Source: Pyxidicoccus parkwaysis
GTDB lineage: Bacteria > Myxococcota > Myxococcia > Myxococcales > Myxococcaceae
Reading direction: 5' to 3'
NCBI RefSeq assembly: GCF_017301735.1
Contig: NZ_CP071090.1
Location: 11,391,001 to 11,455,000 of the forward strand
DNA length: 64,000 nt
Shown here piece after piece: positions 1,328 through 16,537 of the stretch (its first letter is position 1; every line of letters begins with the position of its first letter). The notes under the pieces are model-generated. The model searched no databases and was not told the DNA's origin. It was given only the letters and a program-made list of their open reading frames with translations. Position numbers and translations under genes: made by a program.

Positions 1328-3403
1328 TCAGTTCCGGTCGAGGTACGTCTTGTACGCGTCGAAGCCGTAGTCGCGGCCGAGGAAGTCCTTCACCAACTCA
1401 GCGGCGGGCTTGGAGCCTCCGGGCTCCAGCACGGTGCGGCGGTACTTCATCGCCGTCTCCCGGTCCAGGTACCCGTGCTTCTCGAACTCCGTCTCCAAAT
1501 CCTTCGCGATGACGGACGACCACAGGTACGTGTAGTAGGCCGCCGAGTACGAATCCAGATGCCCGAAGGCGAGCTCGAAGTGCGTGCCGTCCCGGTACTC
1601 GTGCTTGAAGGGACTCAGCTTCTTCTGCAGCGCCAGCATCGCCTGCGTCGTGTCGAAGCCCGGCTTGCGCGTGTAGTAGTCCAGGCTCACCGCCGACAGG
1701 AACAACTGCCGCCGGGACCACAGCCCCTTGCCGAACTCCTTGGATGCCCGCAGCTTCGCCACCAGCTCCGCCGGAATCGTCTCGCCCGTCTGGTGGTGCT
1801 TCGCGAACTGCGTCAGCACCTGCGGGTTGCTCGCCCACTGCTGCAGCAGCATGGACGGCGTCTCCACGAAGTCCCACTCCACCCGCGTGCCGGAGATGCC
1901 GCTCCACTCCTGGCGGCCCGCGAAGATGGCGTGTACCAGGTGGCCGAACTCGTGGAAGAACGTCTCCACCTCGTCGTACGTCATCAGCTCGCCGGCCCGG
2001 CCGAAGTTGCACACCAGCGCGGCCTCCGGGTAGCGCTTGCCCGTCTGGCCCGCCACGAGGTCGAACTGCGCCGCGTGCTTGTACTTGTCGTCACGCGGGT
2101 GCATGTCCAGGTAGATGCGGCCCAGGAGCGTGCTCCCGTCGAGCACGTCGTACGCCTCCACCTCCGGGTGCCACACCTTGGCGTCGTCCGCCTTGCGCCA
2201 GGTGAGCCCCCACATGCGCGCGGCGATGTCCATGACGCCCGCCTTCACCCGCGCATACTCGAAGTAGGGCCGCACCGCCTGCGAGTCGAAGCCGAAGCGC
2301 TCCGCGCGCAGCCGGTCCTCGTAGTAGTCCTGGTCCCACGGCTCCAGCGTCTTCGCGCCGGGCACGTCCTTCTGCTTGCGCGCCAACAGCTCCGCGAACT
2401 CCTGCTTCGCGCGCGGCTCGGTGGCCGCCGCCAGCTTGTCGATGAAGTCCGCCGCCGCCTTCTGCGTGCGGGTCATCTTCGTCTCGGTGGTGTACGCGGC
2501 CCAGCTCTCGTAGCCCAGCAGCGTGGCCAGCTCGTACCGCTTCGCGATGAGCTGGTTGAGCACGGCCTGATTCTTCGGGAAGGCCCGCTGGCGGTACGCG
2601 CGCCACAGCTTCTCGCGCGCCTTGGTGTCCTTCGCGTACGTCATGAAGGGGAAGTAGTCCGGGTAGTTGGAGGTGATGACCACCTTGCCGTCCTTCCCCG
2701 GCGCGTGCGCCTTCCGGTAGTCCTCCGGCAGGCCGTCCAGCTCCTTCGGGCTGAAGGACACGCTGCGCACGTCCTCGGCGATGTTCTTCCCGAACTCCTG
2801 ACCCAGCTTGAGGATGTCCTCGTTGAGGGCCTTCACCTTCGCGCGCGTCGCGTCGTCGCGGTCCACACCGGCTCGGCGGAAGTCGAGCAGCGAGCGCTCC
2901 ATCCAGTAGCGCGTGGCCGCGTCCTCGTGGGACAGGTCCACCGCGGAGAGGGCGTCATACACGCCGCGGTCCTGCGACAGCGCCACGTTGGCCGAGTCCA
3001 CCCGCTGCTCGCACTCGCGCGCGGCGTCGCGGAAGGCGGCGTCGGGCTGCACCTCGCGGGCGAGGCTGGAGCGGTTGGTGGCGGCCGTCAGCGCGCCGGA
3101 GGCCTCGTCGTACGCGGCCAGCACCGCCCTGCCGTCCTTGCGCGCGTCGAGCGTCTTCAGCCGGGCAATCTGCGTCCGGGCAAGCTCGAGGTCCGCGTCG
3201 CACGCGGCGGTGTACTCCTGCACGGTGCCGGAGAGCACGCTGGAGATGCGGGGCGGCGGCGGCTCGGCGGGCGCGGGGGCCGGGGTGGGAGCCGGCGCGG
3301 GGGCCTGGGCCTGCTGGGGAGCGGGCTCGGTGGCCGCGGTGCCGTGCGAGCAGCCCGCCGCCACGAAGGCCGCGGAGAGGGTGAGGGCAGTGAGTCTCTT
3401 CAA
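1328..3403 (-). CDS. M3-family zinc metallopeptidase (oligopeptidase) lipoprotein
   Basis: A 691-residue peptidase. The start is TTG at 3403, with GGAGG nine bases upstream. The N-terminus is a lipoprotein signal (MKRLTALTL...FVAAGCSHG), followed by a low-complexity Pro/Ala linker (about residues 25-52). The catalytic domain carries the M3 zinc motif in FFHEFGHLVHAIF, plus a downstream Glu in VEWDFVETPS as expected for the third ligand. M3 enzymes cleave short peptides; here the enzyme is probably membrane-anchored and would process peptides in the envelope, which fits a predatory or proteolytic lifestyle. Length and domain order are normal for thimet oligopeptidase-like enzymes. It is transcribed divergently from the CheR-like gene, the two starts being about 40 bp apart. 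Confidence 0.9.
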   Translation of the reverse strand: MKRLTALTLSAAFVAAGCSHGTAATEPAPQQAQAPAPAPTPAPAPAEPPPPRISSVLSGTVQEYTAACDADLELARTQIARLKTLDARKDGRAVLAAYDEASGALTAATNRSSLAREVQPDAAFRDAARECEQRVDSANVALSQDRGVYDALSAVDLSHEDAATRYWMERSLLDFRRAGVDRDDATRAKVKALNEDILKLGQEFGKNIAEDVRSVSFSPKELDGLPEDYRKAHAPGKDGKVVITSNYPDYFPFMTYAKDTKAREKLWRAYRQRAFPKNQAVLNQLIAKRYELATLLGYESWAAYTTETKMTRTQKAAADFIDKLAAATEPRAKQEFAELLARKQKDVPGAKTLEPWDQDYYEDRLRAERFGFDSQAVRPYFEYARVKAGVMDIAARMWGLTWRKADDAKVWHPEVEAYDVLDGSTLLGRIYLDMHPRDDKYKHAAQFDLVAGQTGKRYPEAALVCNFGRAGELMTYDEVETFFHEFGHLVHAIFAGRQEWSGISGTRVEWDFVETPSMLLQQWASNPQVLTQFAKHHQTGETIPAELVAKLRASKEFGKGLWSRRQLFLSAVSLDYYTRKPGFDTTQAMLALQKKLSPFKHEYRDGTHFELAFGHLDSYSAAYYTYLWSSVIAKDLETEFEKHGYLDRETAMKYRRTVLEPGGSKPAAELVKDFLGRDYGFDAYKTYLDRN

Positions 3404-3444
3404 GGGTGGGTTCCTCCGGAGTCCATCGGAAACGCCGGAGCGTC

Positions 3445-4623
3445 ATGCCACATCCCGCTCGCTTCTGCTCGGCGGTGGAGTGGGCGGCCGGGCTGGATGT
3501 CGGGGGCATCCACCGTGAGAAGCTTCACGCCGTGACGGACCGCGAGTGCCTGGACCTCTTGCAGTGGGCCGCGCCCCGCCTGCGCCTGCGGTGGGCGGGC
3601 TTCCGTCGCTCCAGCATCCGGGGGCAGGTGCGCAAGCGGCTCGGACGGAGGCTCCAGGCGCTGGGCCTTCCGGATGCCGCTGCCTACCGCGCCCGGCTGG
3701 AGGTGGATGCGGACGAGTGGGCCGTGCTCGACGCGCTCTGCCGCGTCACCATCTCCCGCTTCTACCGCGACGCGCACGTCTTCGACGCGCTGCGGGATGT
3801 GTTGCTGCCTCCGCTGTTGGAGGCGCTGCCGCCGGGAGGCACGTTCCGAGTGTGGAGCGCCGGCTGCGCTTCCGGCGAGGAGCCCTCCACGGTGGCCATC
3901 CTGTTCCGACTCGGCCTCCAGCCTCGCTTCCCGCACGTGCGCCTGGAGTTGCTTGCCACCGACGCCGACGAGGCACTGCTCGCTCGCGCGCGCCGGGGTT
4001 GCTACCCGCGCGGCTCGTTGCGAGAGCTGCCGCCGGAGTGGCGCGCCCGCGCCTTTCTTGGCACCCACGGCCCTGCCGACTCGTCCGACACTCACGGCGC
4101 TGCCGACTCGTCCGACACTCATGGCCCTGCAGACTCGTCAGGCACTCACGGCGCTGCCGACTCGTCCGACACTCATGGCCCTGCAGACTCGTCAGGCACT
4201 CACGGCACTGCGGACCCGTCCGGCACTCACGGCGCTGCCGATGCGTCCGGCACTCACGACGCTGCTGACTCGTCTGGCATTCACGGTGCTGCTGACGCGT
4301 CCGGCACTCACGGCGCTGCTGACGCGTCCGACTCGGACGACGAGCCCTGCATCGACTCCGCATACCGCGAGGGCGTCACCTTTCTCCGACAGGACCTGCG
4401 CACGGAGATGCCGGACGGTCCGTTCCACCTCGTGCTCTGCCGCAACGTGGCCTTCACCTACTTCGCGCCGCCGCTGCAGCTCGAGGTACTCGCGCGGCTC
4501 AGGACGCGACTGGTGCCGGGCGGATTGCTCGCCATCGGCGGCCACGAGTCCCTTCCCGAGCATGGCGCTGAATGGACGCGCGCCGCGGGAGCGCTGCCGC
4601 TCTTCCGCAAGACGTCGAGCTGA
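3445..4623 (+). CDS. CheR-type methyltransferase with a 90-residue repeat insert
   Basis: A 392-residue protein from ATG 3445, with GGAG four bases upstream. CheR enzymes methylate glutamates on chemoreceptors using S-adenosylmethionine. Matching features are SRFYRD (N-terminal domain end), the SAM-binding loop VWSAGCASGEEPST (about residues 136-149), LLATDADEALLARAR and the C-terminal core LVLCRNVAFTYF. Between the beta-subdomain region LPPEWRARAFL and YREGVTFLRQDLR lies a run of ten 9-residue repeats of the form THGAADSSD (residues about 207-296) that ordinary CheR proteins lack. No receptor or CheA/CheW gene is adjacent, so it is an orphan. The insert is acidic, hydrophilic and probably disordered; it could be a flexible spacer or a binding tail. 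Confidence 0.82.
   Translation: MPHPARFCSAVEWAAGLDVGGIHREKLHAVTDRECLDLLQWAAPRLRLRWAGFRRSSIRGQVRKRLGRRLQALGLPDAAAYRARLEVDADEWAVLDALCRVTISRFYRDAHVFDALRDVLLPPLLEALPPGGTFRVWSAGCASGEEPSTVAILFRLGLQPRFPHVRLELLATDADEALLARARRGCYPRGSLRELPPEWRARAFLGTHGPADSSDTHGAADSSDTHGPADSSGTHGAADSSDTHGPADSSGTHGTADPSGTHGAADASGTHDAADSSGIHGAADASGTHGAADASDSDDEPCIDSAYREGVTFLRQDLRTEMPDGPFHLVLCRNVAFTYFAPPLQLEVLARLRTRLVPGGLLAIGGHESLPEHGAEWTRAAGALPLFRKTSS
4063..4332 (+). repeat. 27-bp in-frame minisatellite, ten copies
   Basis: Ten consecutive 27-bp units encode THG[AP]ADSS[DG]-type nonapeptides inside the CheR-like gene. Units are not identical: the first five alternate Pro/Ala, and later units drift (THGTADPSG, THDAADSSG, IHGAADASG). 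Because 27 is a multiple of three, copy-number change would alter protein length without breaking the frame. Confidence 0.95.
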
Positions 4624-4773
4624 GGCGCTTCGGACCCGGTGTTGTGACGCCCCGTGAAACCTGAGTCACCCGTCACGGCTTCGTGACGCGCCCCGCCTTG
4701 AGCGCTGCTCGCGTGCCCGGTACCACCGTCGCCTCTTTGGGGCCAATCCCCTGGCCGGAGGGAAGGCAACGTT

Positions 4774-5670
4774 ATGCGCAAGGCGCTGTGTGCGGCGGTC
4801 GCGTCGTTGATGCTGTCTGCATGTGGAGGTTCTGGCGGTGACACCCCCGCCCAGGCGAAGCAGGACGGTCTGTCGATGTCCGCAGAGACGGGCCGCACGG
4901 ACGGCACCTTCGTCCACGGCGGCGGCGAGGTGTCCTTCTCCTCGCACGAGGTGGAGCCTGGCGTGTACCGCCTGGAAGTGCGGCTGCGGGGCATGACGCT
5001 CACCGGACTGATGGACCCGGCCAGCGGCGTCTCCACGCTGGATGGCTTCGCGGACGGCAGCGCGACGGACACGCAGCTCGGTGACGCGGACCGCGACCTG
5101 CTCTCCGCGTTCTACGGCGCGCTCAACGCGCAGCTCCCCGCGGGCGACGCGGCGGCCCCGGAGGCCATGTACCTGCGGCGCGCGGTGGGCCTGTGGGCGC
5201 AGAACCCCAGCACCGTGGACCTCAAGCGCACGGTGATGGGCGAGCAGGGCCGCGGCTACACCATGCTGTGCAGCTACACCAAGTGCAACGGCCGCCAGAC
5301 GGGCAGCTGCGGTGGCGTGTACAACTGGTACTCGTACGCGAAGCACGACTGCAACAAGGGCGGCTTCGACTATGCGGGCAACCAGCAGATTGCGCAGCTC
5401 GGCGACCACACCACGTGCAGCGGCGATGAGTTCTACCTGAATGGCAGCACGTGGGTGTGCGGCGAGCCGGACCACTGGTCGCGCCCGAAGGTGATGGGCA
5501 TCTGCTTCGGTCGCTGCGGCGGCGGCTGCGGCGGTGACACCCAGTACACGCTGGACGCCACCAACCACGACGGCTGCGTGCGCAACGGCCACGTGCTGGC
5601 GAGCGCCTACTGCGACGACCAGTTCACCTCCGCCAGCGACGACGAGCTGTTCGCTCCCAACTGCTACTGA
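4774..5670 (+). CDS. Cys-rich secreted lipoprotein of unknown function
   Basis: A 298-residue protein starting at ATG 4774, with a strong GGAGGGAAGG site upstream. The lipoprotein signal ends at lipobox MLSACGG (Cys about 17). Residues 20-150 form an acidic, glycine-containing domain. Residues about 160-298 are a cysteine-rich module (CSYTKCNG, GSCGG, HDCNKG, TTCSGDEF, CFGRCGGGCGG, GCVRNG, AYCDD) with roughly a dozen cysteines spaced as expected for disulphides, and many Tyr/Trp/Asn residues. It is probably exported and disulphide-stabilised. I know no confident family. The following small lipoprotein gene starts only 6 bp after the stop, so the two are likely one transcript. Confidence 0.8.
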   Translation: MRKALCAAVASLMLSACGGSGGDTPAQAKQDGLSMSAETGRTDGTFVHGGGEVSFSSHEVEPGVYRLEVRLRGMTLTGLMDPASGVSTLDGFADGSATDTQLGDADRDLLSAFYGALNAQLPAGDAAAPEAMYLRRAVGLWAQNPSTVDLKRTVMGEQGRGYTMLCSYTKCNGRQTGSCGGVYNWYSYAKHDCNKGGFDYAGNQQIAQLGDHTTCSGDEFYLNGSTWVCGEPDHWSRPKVMGICFGRCGGGCGGDTQYTLDATNHDGCVRNGHVLASAYCDDQFTSASDDELFAPNCY

Positions 5671-5675
5671 GCCGC

Positions 5676-6065
5676 ATGGCGTTGGGACGTGTGAAGGTGA
5701 TGCGGGTGGGCCTCGGGGCGTGCTGGCTGGTGCTGGCCGCCCTCGGGTGCTCGTCCGCGTCCTCCAGGACACAGGCCGCGGAGGAGACGGTGCGCCGCTT
5801 CTTCGCGGCGTTGCCCTCGGAGGACTGCGCGGTGCTGGCACCGCTTCTGGCCACCGGGGGCAGCGCGCGCTCCTGCGAAGAGACCGTGCGGGAGCTGAAT
5901 GAGCACGGCATCTCCCTGGTGGCCATCTCCGGGTCGACAGTCGACGGGCGCGACGCGGAGGCCGTCATCGTCCGGACCCGCGTGGCCAGCGGCGGCTCGG
6001 AGCGCAAGGAGCCGTGGCTCTTGCGCGTGGAGCGGCAGGCAGGCGCGTGGCGCGTGCGGTTCTGA
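5676..6065 (+). CDS. Small lipoprotein, possible NTF2-like fold
   Basis: A 129-residue protein from ATG 5676; ATG 5700 (MRVGLGACW) is an alternative start that gives a more typical signal peptide. The lipobox is LAALGCSS. The mature domain begins with AEETVRRFFAALPSEDCAVL and ends with LLRVERQAGAWRVRF, a layout seen in NTF2/SnoaL-like lipoproteins, where a helix (RFF.AL...DC) is followed by a curved sheet ending in a W-R-V motif. No catalytic residues can be pointed to. It lies directly after the Cys-rich lipoprotein gene, so co-expression is likely. Confidence 0.7.
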   Translation: MALGRVKVMRVGLGACWLVLAALGCSSASSRTQAAEETVRRFFAALPSEDCAVLAPLLATGGSARSCEETVRELNEHGISLVAISGSTVDGRDAEAVIVRTRVASGGSERKEPWLLRVERQAGAWRVRF

Positions 6066-6142
6066 GAAGTGGAGTACGCTTCACATCCAACCTCCTGCAC
6101 GCGCCTTGCAGCACGGCGGGCACCTGGGAGGGCAAGCGAGTC

Positions 6143-6706
6143 ATGAGGATTCGATACCGTCTGATGCTGGCTGGCGCCGTGGCGCTCGTCGTGGCCCTGG
6201 TGGCGGTGGCGCTGTGGCCGGCGGCTCCTGTCGAGCACGCGTCTCCGGTGGCGCCTCCGCCCGAGGCGTCCGTCGCCCCGCTGGCGGAGACGTCCGCGCC
6301 GGCGCCGGTGCAGATGCCCGGGAAGGCCGCCGCGCGAGTGGCTCCGGTACTCGCCAGCAGCGAGGAGCGGAGTGCCACGATGGTGGCGCTCGGGCCCGGG
6401 GACGTCGCGCCGGAGCCGGAGGTGGAGAACCCTCCGCCGCAGGAGAACGACGAGATTGTGCCCGAGCTGCCGCAGACGGCGCAGTGGCGGCTGGAGAAGA
6501 CGACGCACATCACCGCGCTGCTGGGCCGGGACGTGGAGCGGCTGGAGCGCGAGCGCGAGGAGGCCGAGACGCGCGGTGACGAGCGGCGGAGCGCGCAGCT
6601 CCAGACGCTGCTCCAGCGCCACCGGGCGCGGCTGCATGAGCTCCGCGAGGAGATTCAGGAGCTGAACGAGGCAGCGAAGCAGGAGCAGGAGTCATCCGGC
6701 GAATGA
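6143..6706 (+). CDS. Membrane-anchored coiled-coil protein
   Basis: A 187-residue protein from ATG 6143, with GGGAGGG upstream. A single N-terminal membrane segment (about residues 9-27, LMLAGAVALVVALVAVAL) is followed by a long Pro/Ala/Glu linker (30-110). A highly charged helical region (about 125-185) contains WRLEKTTHITALLGRDVERLERE and heptad-like LHELREEIQELNEAAK, so a coiled coil is likely. It lacks enzymatic motifs. It probably sits in the inner membrane with the coiled coil in the periplasm, acting as a scaffold or spacer; that role is an inference. No neighbour points to a pathway. Confidence 0.7.
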   Translation: MRIRYRLMLAGAVALVVALVAVALWPAAPVEHASPVAPPPEASVAPLAETSAPAPVQMPGKAAARVAPVLASSEERSATMVALGPGDVAPEPEVENPPPQENDEIVPELPQTAQWRLEKTTHITALLGRDVERLEREREEAETRGDERRSAQLQTLLQRHRARLHELREEIQELNEAAKQEQESSGE

Positions 6707-6755
6707 GGCGGAGGCCAGCGCTCCTGCGTCCTCCACGAGCCCGTGGAGTGGCTCG

Positions 6756-8078
6756 ATGACGGGGATGCGGCGGCGCGTTGCCTTCACGAGCCAGTGTCGC
6801 GGTGTTGCGAGCGGAGGTCGTACCGGAGCCGTGCTCGCGGCTCGCGGTTCCTGGGCCGTGCTCCTGCCGTTGGTGGTTTCGCCGCTCTCATCTCGTGGCT
6901 GCTGGGCCGTAATCCTGCCATTGGTGGCCTCGGTGCTCGCCTGTCAGCCCGTGATGGATGCGCCGCTCGTGTTCACGGAAGTGCGTGCACAGGAACGCCG
7001 TGTCGTAGGTGGCGCGGATGCTCCGGATGACCTCGCCGCGGTGGCGCTCATCGCCCGGCGCACCCGGTGCGGTGGCGAGCCGCCGGTGCTGCTCTGCTCC
7101 GGGGCGCTCATCGCTCCCGACGTCGTGCTCACGGCCGCGCACTGTCTCGCCATCTTCGGTCCGGAGGGGCCTCATGAGGTCTACCTCGGCCAGGTGCTGC
7201 TGCCCGAGCCGGAGCCCTCGCCACGAGGTCGCTTCATCCGCGTGTCCCGCGCCGTCATCCATCCGGACTACGACGCCGCCACGCACGCATACGACGCCGC
7301 GCTGCTGCGGCTCGCGGCACCGGTGGATGTGGCTCCCTTCTCCCTGCCGGACTCCACGAGCGCTGTACCGGTCGCTGGTGCCTCCGCGCGGGTGGTGGGC
7401 TACGGGGACACGAAGGATGCGCGGGCTCCGTCCGGACGGAGAATGCAGGGGACGCTCACGGTGACGCAGGTGGAGCCCGCTGCCTTCCGCGCTGGGCCCT
7501 CGCCGAGCATGAGCTGCGTGGGAGACAGCGGCGGTCCCGTGCTCCTGCGTGATGGCGCGCGCGAGGTGCTGGTGGGGCTCACCGTGAGCGGTGACGTCGC
7601 CTGTCGCGACGAGGCCCGCAACGTGCGCGTGGACGCGCTGCTCGACGGCTTCATCCGCCCGTTTCTCGACGAGGCGCCCGCACCCGTTGTGCCCACGCTG
7701 TCTCCGGAGGACCTCTGCGCCGCCACGTGCTCGCGTGACGCGGAGTGTCCGTCGGGGCTCACCTGTGTCTCCGTGGACGGTGCGCCCGGCCACTGCCTGC
7801 TGCCCGCGCTCCAGGAAGGGAGCTTCGGCGCGACGTGCACGGAGGACTCCACGTGTGGCACGGGCGGGCTCTGCGCGCGGCTGGAGTCCGAGGGCGATGC
7901 CGCATGCCGCTGCTTCACGCCCTGCGCCGGTCCGCTCCCGGACCCGGAGCCGGTGGACCCGCCTGGTTCCGGAGATGACAGCGGCGGCTGCGCGAGTGTG
8001 CCGGGCCCTTCGCTCCTTGCCCTTCTCGTGCTTGCGCTCCGCGCTGCTCGCGGCACACGTCCGTCGTCACGGCGTTAG
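6756..8078 (+). CDS. Secreted trypsin-like serine protease (S1) with MYXO-CTERM-like tail
   Basis: 440 residues from ATG 6756 (ATG 6765 is also possible). After an unusually long N-terminal signal region with an internal duplication, the protease domain begins at RRVVGGADAP (about residue 85). The triad is clear: His in LTAAHC, Asp in YDAALLRL, Ser in CVGDSGGPV. After the catalytic domain comes a Cys-rich stretch (CAATCSRDAECPSGLTC, TCTEDSTCGTGGLC), then a Pro/Gly linker and a C-terminal anchor: GGCAS, hydrophobic LLALLVLALRAA, and a basic end. This layout fits MYXO-CTERM sorting signals, which are cut and surface-anchored by myxosortase-type enzymes. The DNA encoding the anchor is repeated twice more downstream of the stop. 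Confidence 0.88.
   Translation: MTGMRRRVAFTSQCRGVASGGRTGAVLAARGSWAVLLPLVVSPLSSRGCWAVILPLVASVLACQPVMDAPLVFTEVRAQERRVVGGADAPDDLAAVALIARRTRCGGEPPVLLCSGALIAPDVVLTAAHCLAIFGPEGPHEVYLGQVLLPEPEPSPRGRFIRVSRAVIHPDYDAATHAYDAALLRLAAPVDVAPFSLPDSTSAVPVAGASARVVGYGDTKDARAPSGRRMQGTLTVTQVEPAAFRAGPSPSMSCVGDSGGPVLLRDGAREVLVGLTVSGDVACRDEARNVRVDALLDGFIRPFLDEAPAPVVPTLSPEDLCAATCSRDAECPSGLTCVSVDGAPGHCLLPALQEGSFGATCTEDSTCGTGGLCARLESEGDAACRCFTPCAGPLPDPEPVDPPGSGDDSGGCASVPGPSLLALLVLALRAARGTRPSSRR
6841..6942 (+). repeat. 51-bp duplication within the protease signal region
   Basis: Bases 6841-6891 and 6892-6942 are tandem copies (17 codons each). They encode SWAVLLPLVVSPLSS-like and CWAVILPLVASVLA-like hydrophobic segments one after the other, giving the protease two consecutive signal-like stretches. 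Confidence 0.85.
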
Positions 8079-8279
8079 CCGTCGCGAAGAGTGTCCCGGG
8101 CCCTTCGCTCCTTGCCCTTCTCGTGCTTTTGCTCCGCGCTGCTCGCGGCATACGTCCGTCGTCACAGTATTAGCCGCCGCGAAGAGTGTCCCGGGCCCTT
8201 CGCTCCTCGCCCTTCTCGTGCTTGCGCTCCGCGCTGCTCGCGGCATACGTCCGCTGTCATGGCGTTGGCCGCCGCGAAG
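7995..8279 (+). repeat. Three 95-bp copies of the protease's MYXO-CTERM tail and downstream spacer
   Basis: Copies begin at 7995, 8090 and 8185, each starting AGTGT[GC]CCGGGCCCTTCG and running through the hydrophobic-anchor codons, the stop-codon region and the spacer GCCGCGAAG. Copy 1 is translated as the protease C-terminus. Copies 2 and 3 lie after the stop; because 95 is not a multiple of three they are not in a shared frame. The end of copy 3 has changed to AAGGAGGT and forms the ribosome-binding site of the next gene. Confidence 0.93.
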
Positions 8280-8292
8280 GAGGTCGGTGCTG

Positions 8293-8610
8293 ATGCTGCA
8301 CCTGCTGGTCCTGAGGTACCGGGTGTCCGAGCACGAGGCGGAGTCCCATGTCGCGGAACACGTCCGCTACCTGGATCACCATCACCGGGCTGGGACATTC
8401 CTCGTGTCCGGACAGACGATTCCGTCGGACGAGGGCGGCGCCATCCTGGCCCGGGGCGTCGACCGCGCCACCGTGGAGCGCATCACCGCCGAGGACCCCT
8501 TCGTCCGCGCCGGTGTGGCCACGTACACGGTGACCACCATCGACCCGGGCCGGGTGCACCCCGCGCTGGCGGAGTTGCTCGGCGTGGAGGCCTCGCGCGT
8601 GCGGGGCTGA
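8293..8610 (+). CDS. YciI-like (YCII domain) protein
   Basis: A 105-residue protein from ATG 8293, with an excellent AAGGAGGT site eight bases upstream. It has the YciI fold signature: an N-terminal beta strand (LHLLVLRYRV), His residues in HVRYLDHHHRAGTFLVSGQT, then GGAILARGVDRATVERITAEDPFVRAGVA and a closing strand YTVTTIDPG. YciI-type proteins are small ferredoxin-like dimers; some are dehydrochlorinases or act alongside other enzymes, but most are uncharacterised. The closeness of the ribosome site to the tandem tail repeats of the upstream protease means its expression may have been shaped by those duplications. Confidence 0.85.
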   Translation: MLHLLVLRYRVSEHEAESHVAEHVRYLDHHHRAGTFLVSGQTIPSDEGGAILARGVDRATVERITAEDPFVRAGVATYTVTTIDPGRVHPALAELLGVEASRVRG

Positions 8611-8655
8611 TTCAGGAACCGCGAGGACAGGGCGCCGCGCCCGGCTTCCTGGGTG

Positions 8656-9068
8656 GCGGAACGAACGTTCCATCCGCTTACGACGTCCGGGCCGCGACTG
8701 CCTCTTCGGACTGAACGCTGGCGGAACGAACGTCCCTTCCGCTCCCGGCACCCGGCCGCATTCGCCTCGCCGGGCCGAACGCTGGCGGAATGAACGCTCC
8801 TTCCGCTTCCAGTGTTCGCTCTGGGCCTGCCTCTGCGGCCAGGCCGCTCGCGGAATGAACGTTCCTTTCACGCCCGGTGCCCGGGCCGAGCCTGCCTCTC
8901 CGACCAGTCCGCTCGCGGAACGAAAGTTCCGTCCGCTTCCGGCGCCCGCTCCACGTCTGCCTCGTCGGGCTGATTGCTGGCGGAATGAATGCTTCTTCCG
9001 CTTCATACGTGCCCGGGCCGCGGCTGCCTCGCCGGGCGGGCCTCTGGCGGAATGAACGTTCCTTCCGC
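8656..9068. repeat. Seven-copy, 65-bp-period array of a 22-bp near-palindrome
   Basis: Near-palindromes start at 8656, 8721, 8785, 8850, 8915, 8980 and 9047. Each has left arm GCGGAA, centre close to GAACGTTC and right arm TTCCGC, with single central mismatches. Spacing is 65, 64, 65, 65, 65 and 67 bp. The 42-45 bp between palindromes are also related (TTCCGGCGCCCGGGCCG, then CTGCCTCGCCGGGC), so the true repeat unit is the whole 65 bp. As 65 is not a multiple of three, no reading frame persists through the array and it is not coding. Single copies occur at 20695 and 33704. Confidence 0.92.
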
Positions 9069-9095
9069 TTCATACGCGCCTCACGCTCGACACGT

Positions 9096-9335
9096 GCGTG
9101 CCAGGCGGGGCTGTGCGTTGGCGGCCGTGCTCGCATCTGGAGCGGGCGGCTTCGTGTCACTCAGGCGCTCAGGCTGCGTGCCATGCGGGGCTATGCGCTG
9201 GCGGCCGTGCTCGCATCTGGAGCGGGCGGCTTCGTGTCACTCAGGCGCTCAGGCTGCGTGCCATGCGGGGCTGTGCGCTGCGGCCACGCTCGCATCCGGA
9301 GCGCGTGGCCTCGTGTCACTCAAGTGTGAATGCGC
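9096..9335. repeat. Three tandem 80-bp repeats
   Basis: Copies start at 9096, 9176 and 9256, each beginning GCGTGCCATGCGGGGCT and containing GGCTTCGTGTCACTCAGGCG. Copies 1 and 2 are nearly identical; copy 3 is more diverged and shorter. The segment GTGTCACTCAGGCG also marks the stop-codon region of the basic protein gene at 9404, so this array appears to be built partly from that gene's 3' flank. The period is not a multiple of three. Confidence 0.9.
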
Positions 9336-9480
9336 GTCCTGCGCGCGCCCCGGTACTTGTAGGCCCTGCCCGCCTTCAGCGGCGTCGTGTCCCCGTGTGT
9401 CACTCAGGCGCGGATGCTCGTCTTGCGCGCGCCCCGGCGCTTGTAGGCCTTGCCCGCCTTCAGCGGCGTCGTGTCTCCGC
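9313..9480 (-). repeat. 84-bp tandem duplication of the 3' end of the basic-protein gene
   Basis: Bases 9313-9396 and 9397-9480 align at an offset of 84 and share CTGCCCGCCTTCAGC and GTCGTGT. The copy at 9397-9480 encodes the last part of the minus-strand basic protein plus its stop; the copy at 9313-9396 lies downstream of the stop and has accumulated changes. Confidence 0.88.
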
Positions 9481-9802
9481 GTCCGGTGGTCTTCTTCGCG
9501 GTGCCTTCCTTGCGGTAGGCCGCGGCGGCCATGGACGGCAGCGTCTTGCGCCGCGACGTGCTGCTACCCAATTCAGGCACCGGCAGCTTGCTGCTCTTCG
9601 TCCTGTTGCCTCGTCCCGGCTCCTTGCGCGGGCTGACGCTGCGGTCCGGGAACTCCGCGTCCCCCAGCGCGAGCCGCCCCAGCTTCTTCGCCTTGTGCCG
9701 GCCTTCACCCTCGGCCCGGCCCACGTCCGTGGCCTTGAGGGTCAGCGTCGTGCCCTTCTTCTTCGCCTGCTTCACACGTGTCGCTCGAGACTTCTCTGGC
9801 AT
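9404..9802 (-). CDS. Small, very basic Lys/Arg-rich protein
   Basis: 132 residues from ATG 9802 (MPEKSRATRVKQAKKKG), with GGGAGG upstream. About a quarter of the residues are Lys or Arg, spread along the chain with few hydrophobics, as in histone-H1-like or ribosome/nucleic-acid-associated proteins. Motifs such as KAKKLGRLALGD, SRRKTLPSMAAAAYRKEG and KAGKAYKRRGARKTS suggest a flexible nucleic-acid-binding chain; this role is inferred from charge only. A second such gene occurs at 13134-13433, sharing the short motif RKTLP. The 3' end is duplicated downstream. Confidence 0.75.
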   Translation of the reverse strand: MPEKSRATRVKQAKKKGTTLTLKATDVGRAEGEGRHKAKKLGRLALGDAEFPDRSVSPRKEPGRGNRTKSSKLPVPELGSSTSRRKTLPSMAAAAYRKEGTAKKTTGRGDTTPLKAGKAYKRRGARKTSIRA

Positions 9803-9944
9803 GGAACCTCCCAGGCACTCAGGTAGGAATGAATCTCCCCGGTTGCCAGGGAGCAGCGGGGCGGACAGGCCCCAGCGCCGCCGTTCCCTGCGGCGCGTCC
9901 TTCCCCGGCTCCACCTCCGCGCCAGCGCACGTCGCCGCGCTCTC

Positions 9945-10673
9945 ATGGCGTCACTACTCCACACCCGCATCGTCCCCAAGGCCCGGGTTGCGCACGCGCG
10001 CGTCGCGGTGCTCCCATGGCACCTCGTGCCGCGCCCACTCCTTCCACAGGTCCCGCCCGACGCGGACGCCTCGCACCGCGTCTGCGCCACCTGCGCGCGC
10101 GCCGTGCTCCCCGGACGCGACGCACGCTGCCGGGAATGCGGCGGCTCGCTGGAGGATGCGCCGCACGTCTCGCGCGGGCCCCCACCTCCGCCGCCTCCCC
10201 GCCGCCTCACCCGCGCCCAGCGCGCGGCCGTCCTCCGTCCGAAGTGGGCCTCGCAGTACTGGATGGGGACGTTCTTCCTCGCCCTGGGCACGCTGGTGCT
10301 GCCGGTGGCGCTCGCCTTCCTCCGGCCGCTGCTGTTGATGGCGGGCATCTTCCTCGTCGTGGGTGTCCGGCTCCGCCGCTCCGGCTGGCCCTCCGTGCTC
10401 CGCCGCGCGCAGCGCCGCCGCCTCCATGTCCTGCGCTGGGGCCTCGGCGCCCCGGCGGAGTTGACGCAGGTGGAGCGCCACTCCCTCCCCGGACTCGAAG
10501 CGGGCCGCGTGGCCCGGCTCGACTACGTCTTCCTCGTCCACGGCCAGCCCGTGCCGGGGAGCGTGCCCTCGTCGCGCCTCGCGGACGCACGCCGGCCTCC
10601 GGGGGAGCCCGTGTGGGCCGTCTACCTGGCCGAAAGTCCGGACGTCAGCGCGCTCTGGCCGCCGGAGTCCTGA
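9945..10673 (+). CDS. Zinc-ribbon membrane protein of unknown function
   Basis: About 242 residues from ATG 9945; the true start is uncertain because the upstream ribosome site is weak. An N-terminal zinc ribbon (CATCARAV...CRECGG, about residues 50-70) is followed by a Pro-rich linker, two adjacent membrane segments (about 107-140, FFLALGTLVLPVALAFL and LLLMAGIFLVVGV) and a soluble C-terminal part with VAVYLAES-like strands. It resembles small zinc-ribbon/TM proteins of unknown role. It is divergent from the basic-protein gene and upstream of a DUF1361 membrane protein gene. Confidence 0.68.
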   Translation: MASLLHTRIVPKARVAHARVAVLPWHLVPRPLLPQVPPDADASHRVCATCARAVLPGRDARCRECGGSLEDAPHVSRGPPPPPPPRRLTRAQRAAVLRPKWASQYWMGTFFLALGTLVLPVALAFLRPLLLMAGIFLVVGVRLRRSGWPSVLRRAQRRRLHVLRWGLGAPAELTQVERHSLPGLEAGRVARLDYVFLVHGQPVPGSVPSSRLADARRPPGEPVWAVYLAESPDVSALWPPES

Positions 10674-16273: not shown

Positions 16274-16441
16274 AGGCACCCTGGCTTTGCCCCGGCCGGA
16301 GGCAAAAGTCGATGCCCGCGTGCGTCCCCGTCAGGTGCAGGGCAGATGCGCCGGCCACCGCGCGGGCACCCGTGTAGGCTGCCGCGCCCGCTGCCATGGC
16401 GCCCCGGTTTGCACTGGCATGACACCCCCGCTCCCGCTGCC

Positions 16442-16537
16442 ATGACGCCCCCCGCTCCCGCTGCTATGACGCCCCCCGCTTCCGCTGCCATGACGCCCCC
16501 CGCTTCCGCTGCCATGACGCCCCCCGCTTCCGCCGCC
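16442..16537 (+). repeat. 24-bp tandem repeats each carrying an in-frame ATG
   Basis: Four units of form ATGACGCCCCCCGCTTCCGC begin at 16442, 16466, 16490 and 16514 and encode MTPPA[PS]AA. A partial fifth unit follows without the ATG. Every unit offers a possible start codon for the CPBP protease. Confidence 0.92.

Follow-up and report, generated by a model that had tools for sequence, protein, structure and literature searches.

A lineage-specific in-frame minisatellite within an orphan CheR-family methyltransferase gene of Pyxidicoccus parkwaysis

Enzymes of the CheR family (PF01739) are characterised by methylation of receptor glutamates. The pentapeptide-docking residues of their beta-subdomain are given as Q182, R187, G188, G190, G194 and R197 (PMC2577667). 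In Myxococcus xanthus an orphan CheR, CheRa (MXAN_7103), is listed as a protein of 346 amino acids with its domain at residues 144-334 (PMC3945109). Repeat number is known to matter in another methyltransferase complex, in which the HsdS subunits of EcoR124I and EcoR124II carry two or three copies of a 12-bp TAEL repeat, a helical spacer whose effect on specificity is proven (PMC3874165). Our literature searches found no paper containing MXAN_7103, and none combining Myxococcus with tandem repeats and minisatellite.

We analysed a 64,000-nucleotide stretch of the P. parkwaysis genome (the window), in which a CheR-like methyltransferase gene is interrupted by a tandem repeat (Table 1). Upstream, the methyltransferase frame stays open as far as position 3406, and the ATG at 3445 could serve as the start instead. 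The SAM-binding domain of CheR (PF01739) was recognised with 124.1 bits, above the Pfam cut-off of 27, and its profile matched in two adjoining halves (3-105 and 107-183), one on each side of the array. The N-terminal all-alpha domain CheR_N reached 21.0 bits (cut-off 27), and 13 of the 22 members of a subfamily alignment matched it at E up to 0.001. Structural comparison identified the fold as CheR, since the matches at ranks 1 to 7 were all CheR (Z 20.8-23.6) and the next row had a Z of 13.3. The core residues corresponding to R98, E129, D154, R230 and Y235 of E. coli CheR are all kept (5/5), and the CheR core was modelled confidently by AlphaFold2 with pLDDT mostly above 85.

Table 1. Features of the methyltransferase gene, in window coordinates.
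Feature	Position	Strand	Basis
CheR-like methyltransferase gene	3532..4623	+	GTG start inferred from orthologue start (MTDxEC); orthologue alignment
SSIRGQVR: two added codons, V to I, C to R	3610..3633	+	comparison with VRGQVC in 30 other genomes
Conserved helix preceding the array, PEWRARAFL	4033..4059	+	alignment with E. coli CheR as far as M186
Ten 27-bp units, (G/D)TH(G/D)(A/P/T)AD(S/A/P)S, 90 residues, predicted disordered	4060..4329	+	TRF, unit table, pLDDT
DSDDEPC, corresponding to the orthologues' linker of 7-8 residues with its Cys (e.g. F-PDPGPEP-C)	4330..4350	+	orthologue alignment

The protein thus has the SAM-binding domain, the fold (Z 22.8-23.6) and the five core residues in common with the CheR receptor methyltransferases of E. 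coli/Salmonella (1af7/1bc5) and B. subtilis (5ftw), and it may likewise methylate receptor glutamates. It differs from these classical enzymes in its sub-cut-off CheR_N match, its unkept docking set, its 90-residue loop array and the absence of che neighbours. MCP was matched 27 times and CheB 9 times, with no match closer to the gene than about 201 kb and about 207 kb, respectively; the gene is an orphan, not the CheR of a chemosensory cluster, and no che genes are nearby. CheRa of M. xanthus is probably the orthologue, judging by length and domain spacing rather than by alignment, and at its size no array is expected there, unlike in the window protein.

The repeat was detected by TRF at 4060-4330 with a period of 27, 10.0 copies, 84% matches, 0% indels and a score of 353. 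Lag-27 identity over 243 bases was 0.840 in the gene, whereas 1000 codon shuffles averaged 0.366 and never exceeded 0.444. A 21-base core found 8 matches in the window with up to 3 mismatches, all of them inside the array, where 0.02 would be expected. Together with the Pfam matches on both sides, the TRF result and the shuffles confirm what an earlier note on this DNA had proposed, namely that ten in-frame 27-bp units lie inside a CheR-type catalytic domain; the interval it gave, 4063-4332, is the TRF array with its phase shifted by one codon. The reading frame is uninterrupted across the array. Growth would have stayed in frame because the unit is nine codons long, and gain or loss of units would, as had also been claimed, stay in frame with a 27-bp unit in the coding frame. 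The acidity ascribed to the repeat is mild: its 90 residues include 14 Asp and 10 His and no Lys, Arg or Glu.

Several properties of the units bear on the age and the state of the array. Third-position GC is 0.66 in the array and 0.87 in the flank on either side, which is what a recent insert would show. All 27/27 bases agree between units 3 and 5 and 26/27 between units 2 and 4, and the pair 2-3 differs from the pair 4-5 by one base; such near-identity of units 3/5 and 2/4 is the mark of segment duplication. Most array blocks had pLDDT values of 32-50 in the AlphaFold2 model, so that the array is predicted to be disordered. Comparison of the units gave a pN/pS of 0.35 for the coding frame and of 0.39-1.82 for the five others; this hints, but no more than hints, that the sequence of the repeat may itself be kept. 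Third positions made up 6 of the 11 variable columns, a weak enrichment (p 0.12).

Known repeat families and a non-protein role were considered and rejected. An RTX-type nonapeptide, which forms a calcium beta-roll, was not among the Pfam hits (E up to 0.1), nor does the Gly/Asp spacing of the array follow the RTX pattern. A Plasmodium histidine-rich protein profile gave 26.4 bits against a cut-off of 45.8, and collagen-like adhesins and phage tail proteins matched weakly; these matches covered the array only and are attributed to composition. As to a regulatory or RNA role, the Rfam search of 3000-10000 gave no match, no promoter-like site was found in the regulatory scan, and one terminator-like site (4040-4053) was found where 0.4 would be expected by chance.

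The distribution of the array was determined by comparing genomes, one per species. In the family search, which covered 96 genomes including the own one, 54 passed the threshold. Both gene halves were present in 41 genomes besides the own, and all 41 join them directly with no insertion; the remaining genomes above the threshold gave weaker single-piece matches, and G074, which belongs to the same genus, gave no orthologue match in this search. When a profile of 22 relatives was run against 195 genomes of the phylum, 45 matched at E up to 1e-60, own included. The other 44 orthologue genomes had one match each, with a DNA length between 6 codons shorter and 2 codons longer than the model span. 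The conserved Phe-to-Cys linker measured 7 or 8 residues at 59 loci in 30 genomes and 97 in the window. Orthology was supported by the shared gene neighbourhood, as the next two genes are found at 10 of 10 syntenic loci and the M3 peptidase at 8 of 10. A 54% match in a Gemmatimonadales MAG indicates that the subfamily extends beyond Myxococcota. The array is therefore private to the P. parkwaysis genome among the orthologue genomes compared, and between species it is absent, not shorter. The term "length-variable" used in the earlier note was an inference rather than an observation and finds no support between species: 44/44 other orthologue genomes, each standing for one species, have no insertion.

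A donor or a mobile repeat as the origin was rejected, because none was found in the own genome, or in the 95 other family genomes among the 8 candidates scored in each. The repeat is single-copy in the own genome, where the next DNA match reached 70% over 73 bases (E 0.26) and the next protein match to the array E 0.038. Short matches of 32-63 bases (best E 3.3e-4) occurred in 10 of the 95 other genomes, and the one inspected, in G073, lay in an unrelated frame. Recombination from a diverged donor was rejected as well, as divergence is raised over the whole gene with no sharp edge.

We then placed the array in the CheR fold. By alignment it starts directly after the residue matching M186 of E. 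coli CheR, a position that corresponds to the beginning of the receptor-pentapeptide docking loop. None of the six docking residues is kept in the window protein (0/6), and across 11 subfamily rows R187, G188, G190 and R197 were found in none, G194 in two and Q182 in one. The three-stranded beta-subdomain is not present in the predicted models of the window protein and of the orthologue in the relative G068; these have zero strands of at least 3 residues between the pre-loop helix and the next core strand, and the G068 orthologue has a short loop there. From residues and models, the subfamily appears to have lost the receptor-docking beta-subdomain of classical CheR. Since the docking residues are unkept and the subdomain is unpredicted, the array would have grown in a replacement loop, not beside a beta-subdomain. 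The earlier placement, which had the repeat separating the beta-subdomain from the remaining core, needs revision accordingly: the array is at the beta-subdomain position itself.

The reading that we prefer, with a probability of roughly two in three, is that a minisatellite specific to this lineage expanded within a surface loop of the orphan CheR-family enzyme and is most likely tolerated, rather than being a purpose-built switch. It would have been born within this lineage in a short loop at the site where classical CheR enzymes carry their receptor-docking beta-subdomain. Slippage or unequal exchange would have enlarged it, as the identical units 3 and 5 and the two nearly identical unit pairs suggest. 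The product would be an arm of some 90 residues, flexible, hydrophilic and mildly acidic, which extends out of the fold as a loop, while the catalytic core presumably remains folded and under purifying selection, tolerating the insert.

Arrays in related genomes are consistent with such an origin. Near the gene, P. fallax (G057) has an array of 83 bp x 9.0 between the peptidase and the methyltransferase gene, P. caerfyrddinensis (G054) one of 19 bp x 4.0 that runs from the orthologue's last codons past the stop (L048:8951-9026), G068 one of 102 bp x 2.8, and G073 one of 90 bp x 2.4. All four relatives examined (4/4) thus have arrays lacking a same-place counterpart in the other species compared, which favours ordinary expansion. 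We also surveyed 800 kb (40 stretches) of the own genome and 400 kb (20 stretches) of G068 for arrays of at least 4 copies, a period of at least 15 and at least 120 bases, and found 3 and 4, respectively; each of the seven has a period that is a multiple of three and falls in an open frame. Given the arrays in the four relatives and the survey, array birth is common here; the less common part is an array inside a folded catalytic domain. In-frame minisatellites of the genus, such as the DSGTQQQT (lipoprotein-like) and IPLPGAASYGD repeats, resemble the CheR array in having whole-codon units, open frames and hydrophilic or low-complexity products. They sit in linkers or tails, whereas the CheR array interrupts a catalytic domain.

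Other repeats were recorded in the window and at related loci. At 7994-8279 three tandem 95-bp copies occupy the 3' end of a trypsin-like gene (6756-8078), each carrying a coding stretch for the hydrophobic C-terminal tail of the trypsin-like protein; G068 and G054 are without about 190 bases at this site (gap 14 versus 205 bases). An intergenic, roughly 65-bp array at 8654-9071 contains a near-palindrome of type GGAATGAA..TTCC, and G068 and G054 have similar arrays at the corresponding site. The GGAATGAA..TTCC motif also fills the P. fallax array upstream of the methyltransferase gene; motif hits numbered 12, 8 and 7, with 2 in the window. At 16388-16537 an open frame holds 6.3 copies of a 24-bp unit, which encode APAAMTPP-type repeats. 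The DSGTQQQT repeat (L099:16645-16830) lies downstream of a lipoprotein-like signal, and the lipoprotein homologue in P. fallax carries a DAGT repeat whose units differ in length.

Selection on the gene was examined with regard to the possibility that it is losing function in this lineage, the array being one sign of weakened constraint. Amino-acid change is asymmetric: with G073 as outgroup the window gene had 26 changes and its G068 orthologue 4, compared with 29:22 and 23:14 in neighbour gene sets (Fisher p 0.007), although G073 is perhaps not a true outgroup for this gene, because at synonymous sites it is closer to G068 than the window is. The asymmetry was significant with 3 of 6 outgroups, namely G073, G057 (p 0.0002) and G067 (p 0.02), and gave p values of 0.12, 0.11 and 0.19 with G079, G063 and G061. 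A count of lineage-specific substitutions, 19 in the window versus 1-8, overstates the difference, because the window stands alone on its branch and 4 of 5 references have a close sister. The N-terminal VRGQVC motif, which is invariant in the 22-member alignment except for its Gly, is broken, with two residues added. Against a loss of function, the frame is open and the core residues are kept. Moreover, dN/dS between the window gene and six relatives was 0.205-0.352, no higher than the 0.239-0.396 between array-free relatives, and the window's 2 private changes among 105 columns that are invariant in the other sequences are not unusual, being inside the 0-4 range of the nine sequences tested. 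The catalytic core looks to be under purifying selection and the predicted enzyme looks intact, and we consider the loss of function rather unlikely. The faster change and the broken motif may reflect altered partner binding or weaker constraint.

An arm whose copy number adjusts reach, partner binding or metal binding, and which thus works as an adaptive element, also seems to us unlikely. In its favour, the unit is in frame, the array sits on the side of the CheR fold where partners dock, pN/pS between units is low, and the rest of the protein changes faster on this lineage with some outgroups. Each unit offers one His and one or two Asp as potential metal ligands, and in EcoR124I/II repeat number alters a methyltransferase complex (PMC3874165). 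The likeness lies in an in-frame repeat number inside a methyltransferase-complex subunit; the EcoR124I/II repeat is helical with a proven effect, whereas the CheR array is disordered in prediction and its effect putative. The absence of the array from 44/44 other orthologue genomes, with no length variants known, argues against tuning, as do the predicted disorder and the occurrence of the relatives' nearby arrays outside coding sequence. The suggestion in the earlier note that array length tunes activity or partner binding therefore keeps only indirect support, from the faster lineage change and the broken N-terminal motif, and is countered by the arrays in 4/4 relatives.

A bolder version strikes us as improbable: a disordered, length-adjustable arm at the lost docking hairpin would recruit a new partner or substrate, the N-terminal motif would have co-adapted, and copy number would set contact strength. 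An assembly artefact or a wrong frame is hardly credible, for although repeats are generally prone to misassembly, the 270 bp here are made up of units that have diverged, the genome is a single contig, orthologues align with both flanks in one frame, and the codon pattern fits on either side.

On the preferred reading of a tolerated insertion, the locus offers a dated natural experiment, in which one species carries, and its close relatives lack, a large disordered repeat in a folded catalytic domain. It would cleanly test the tolerance of a conserved enzyme, and it suggests that the CheR docking loop may be dispensable in this orphan subfamily. If array length were found to vary and to matter, the protein would be a tunable signalling enzyme.
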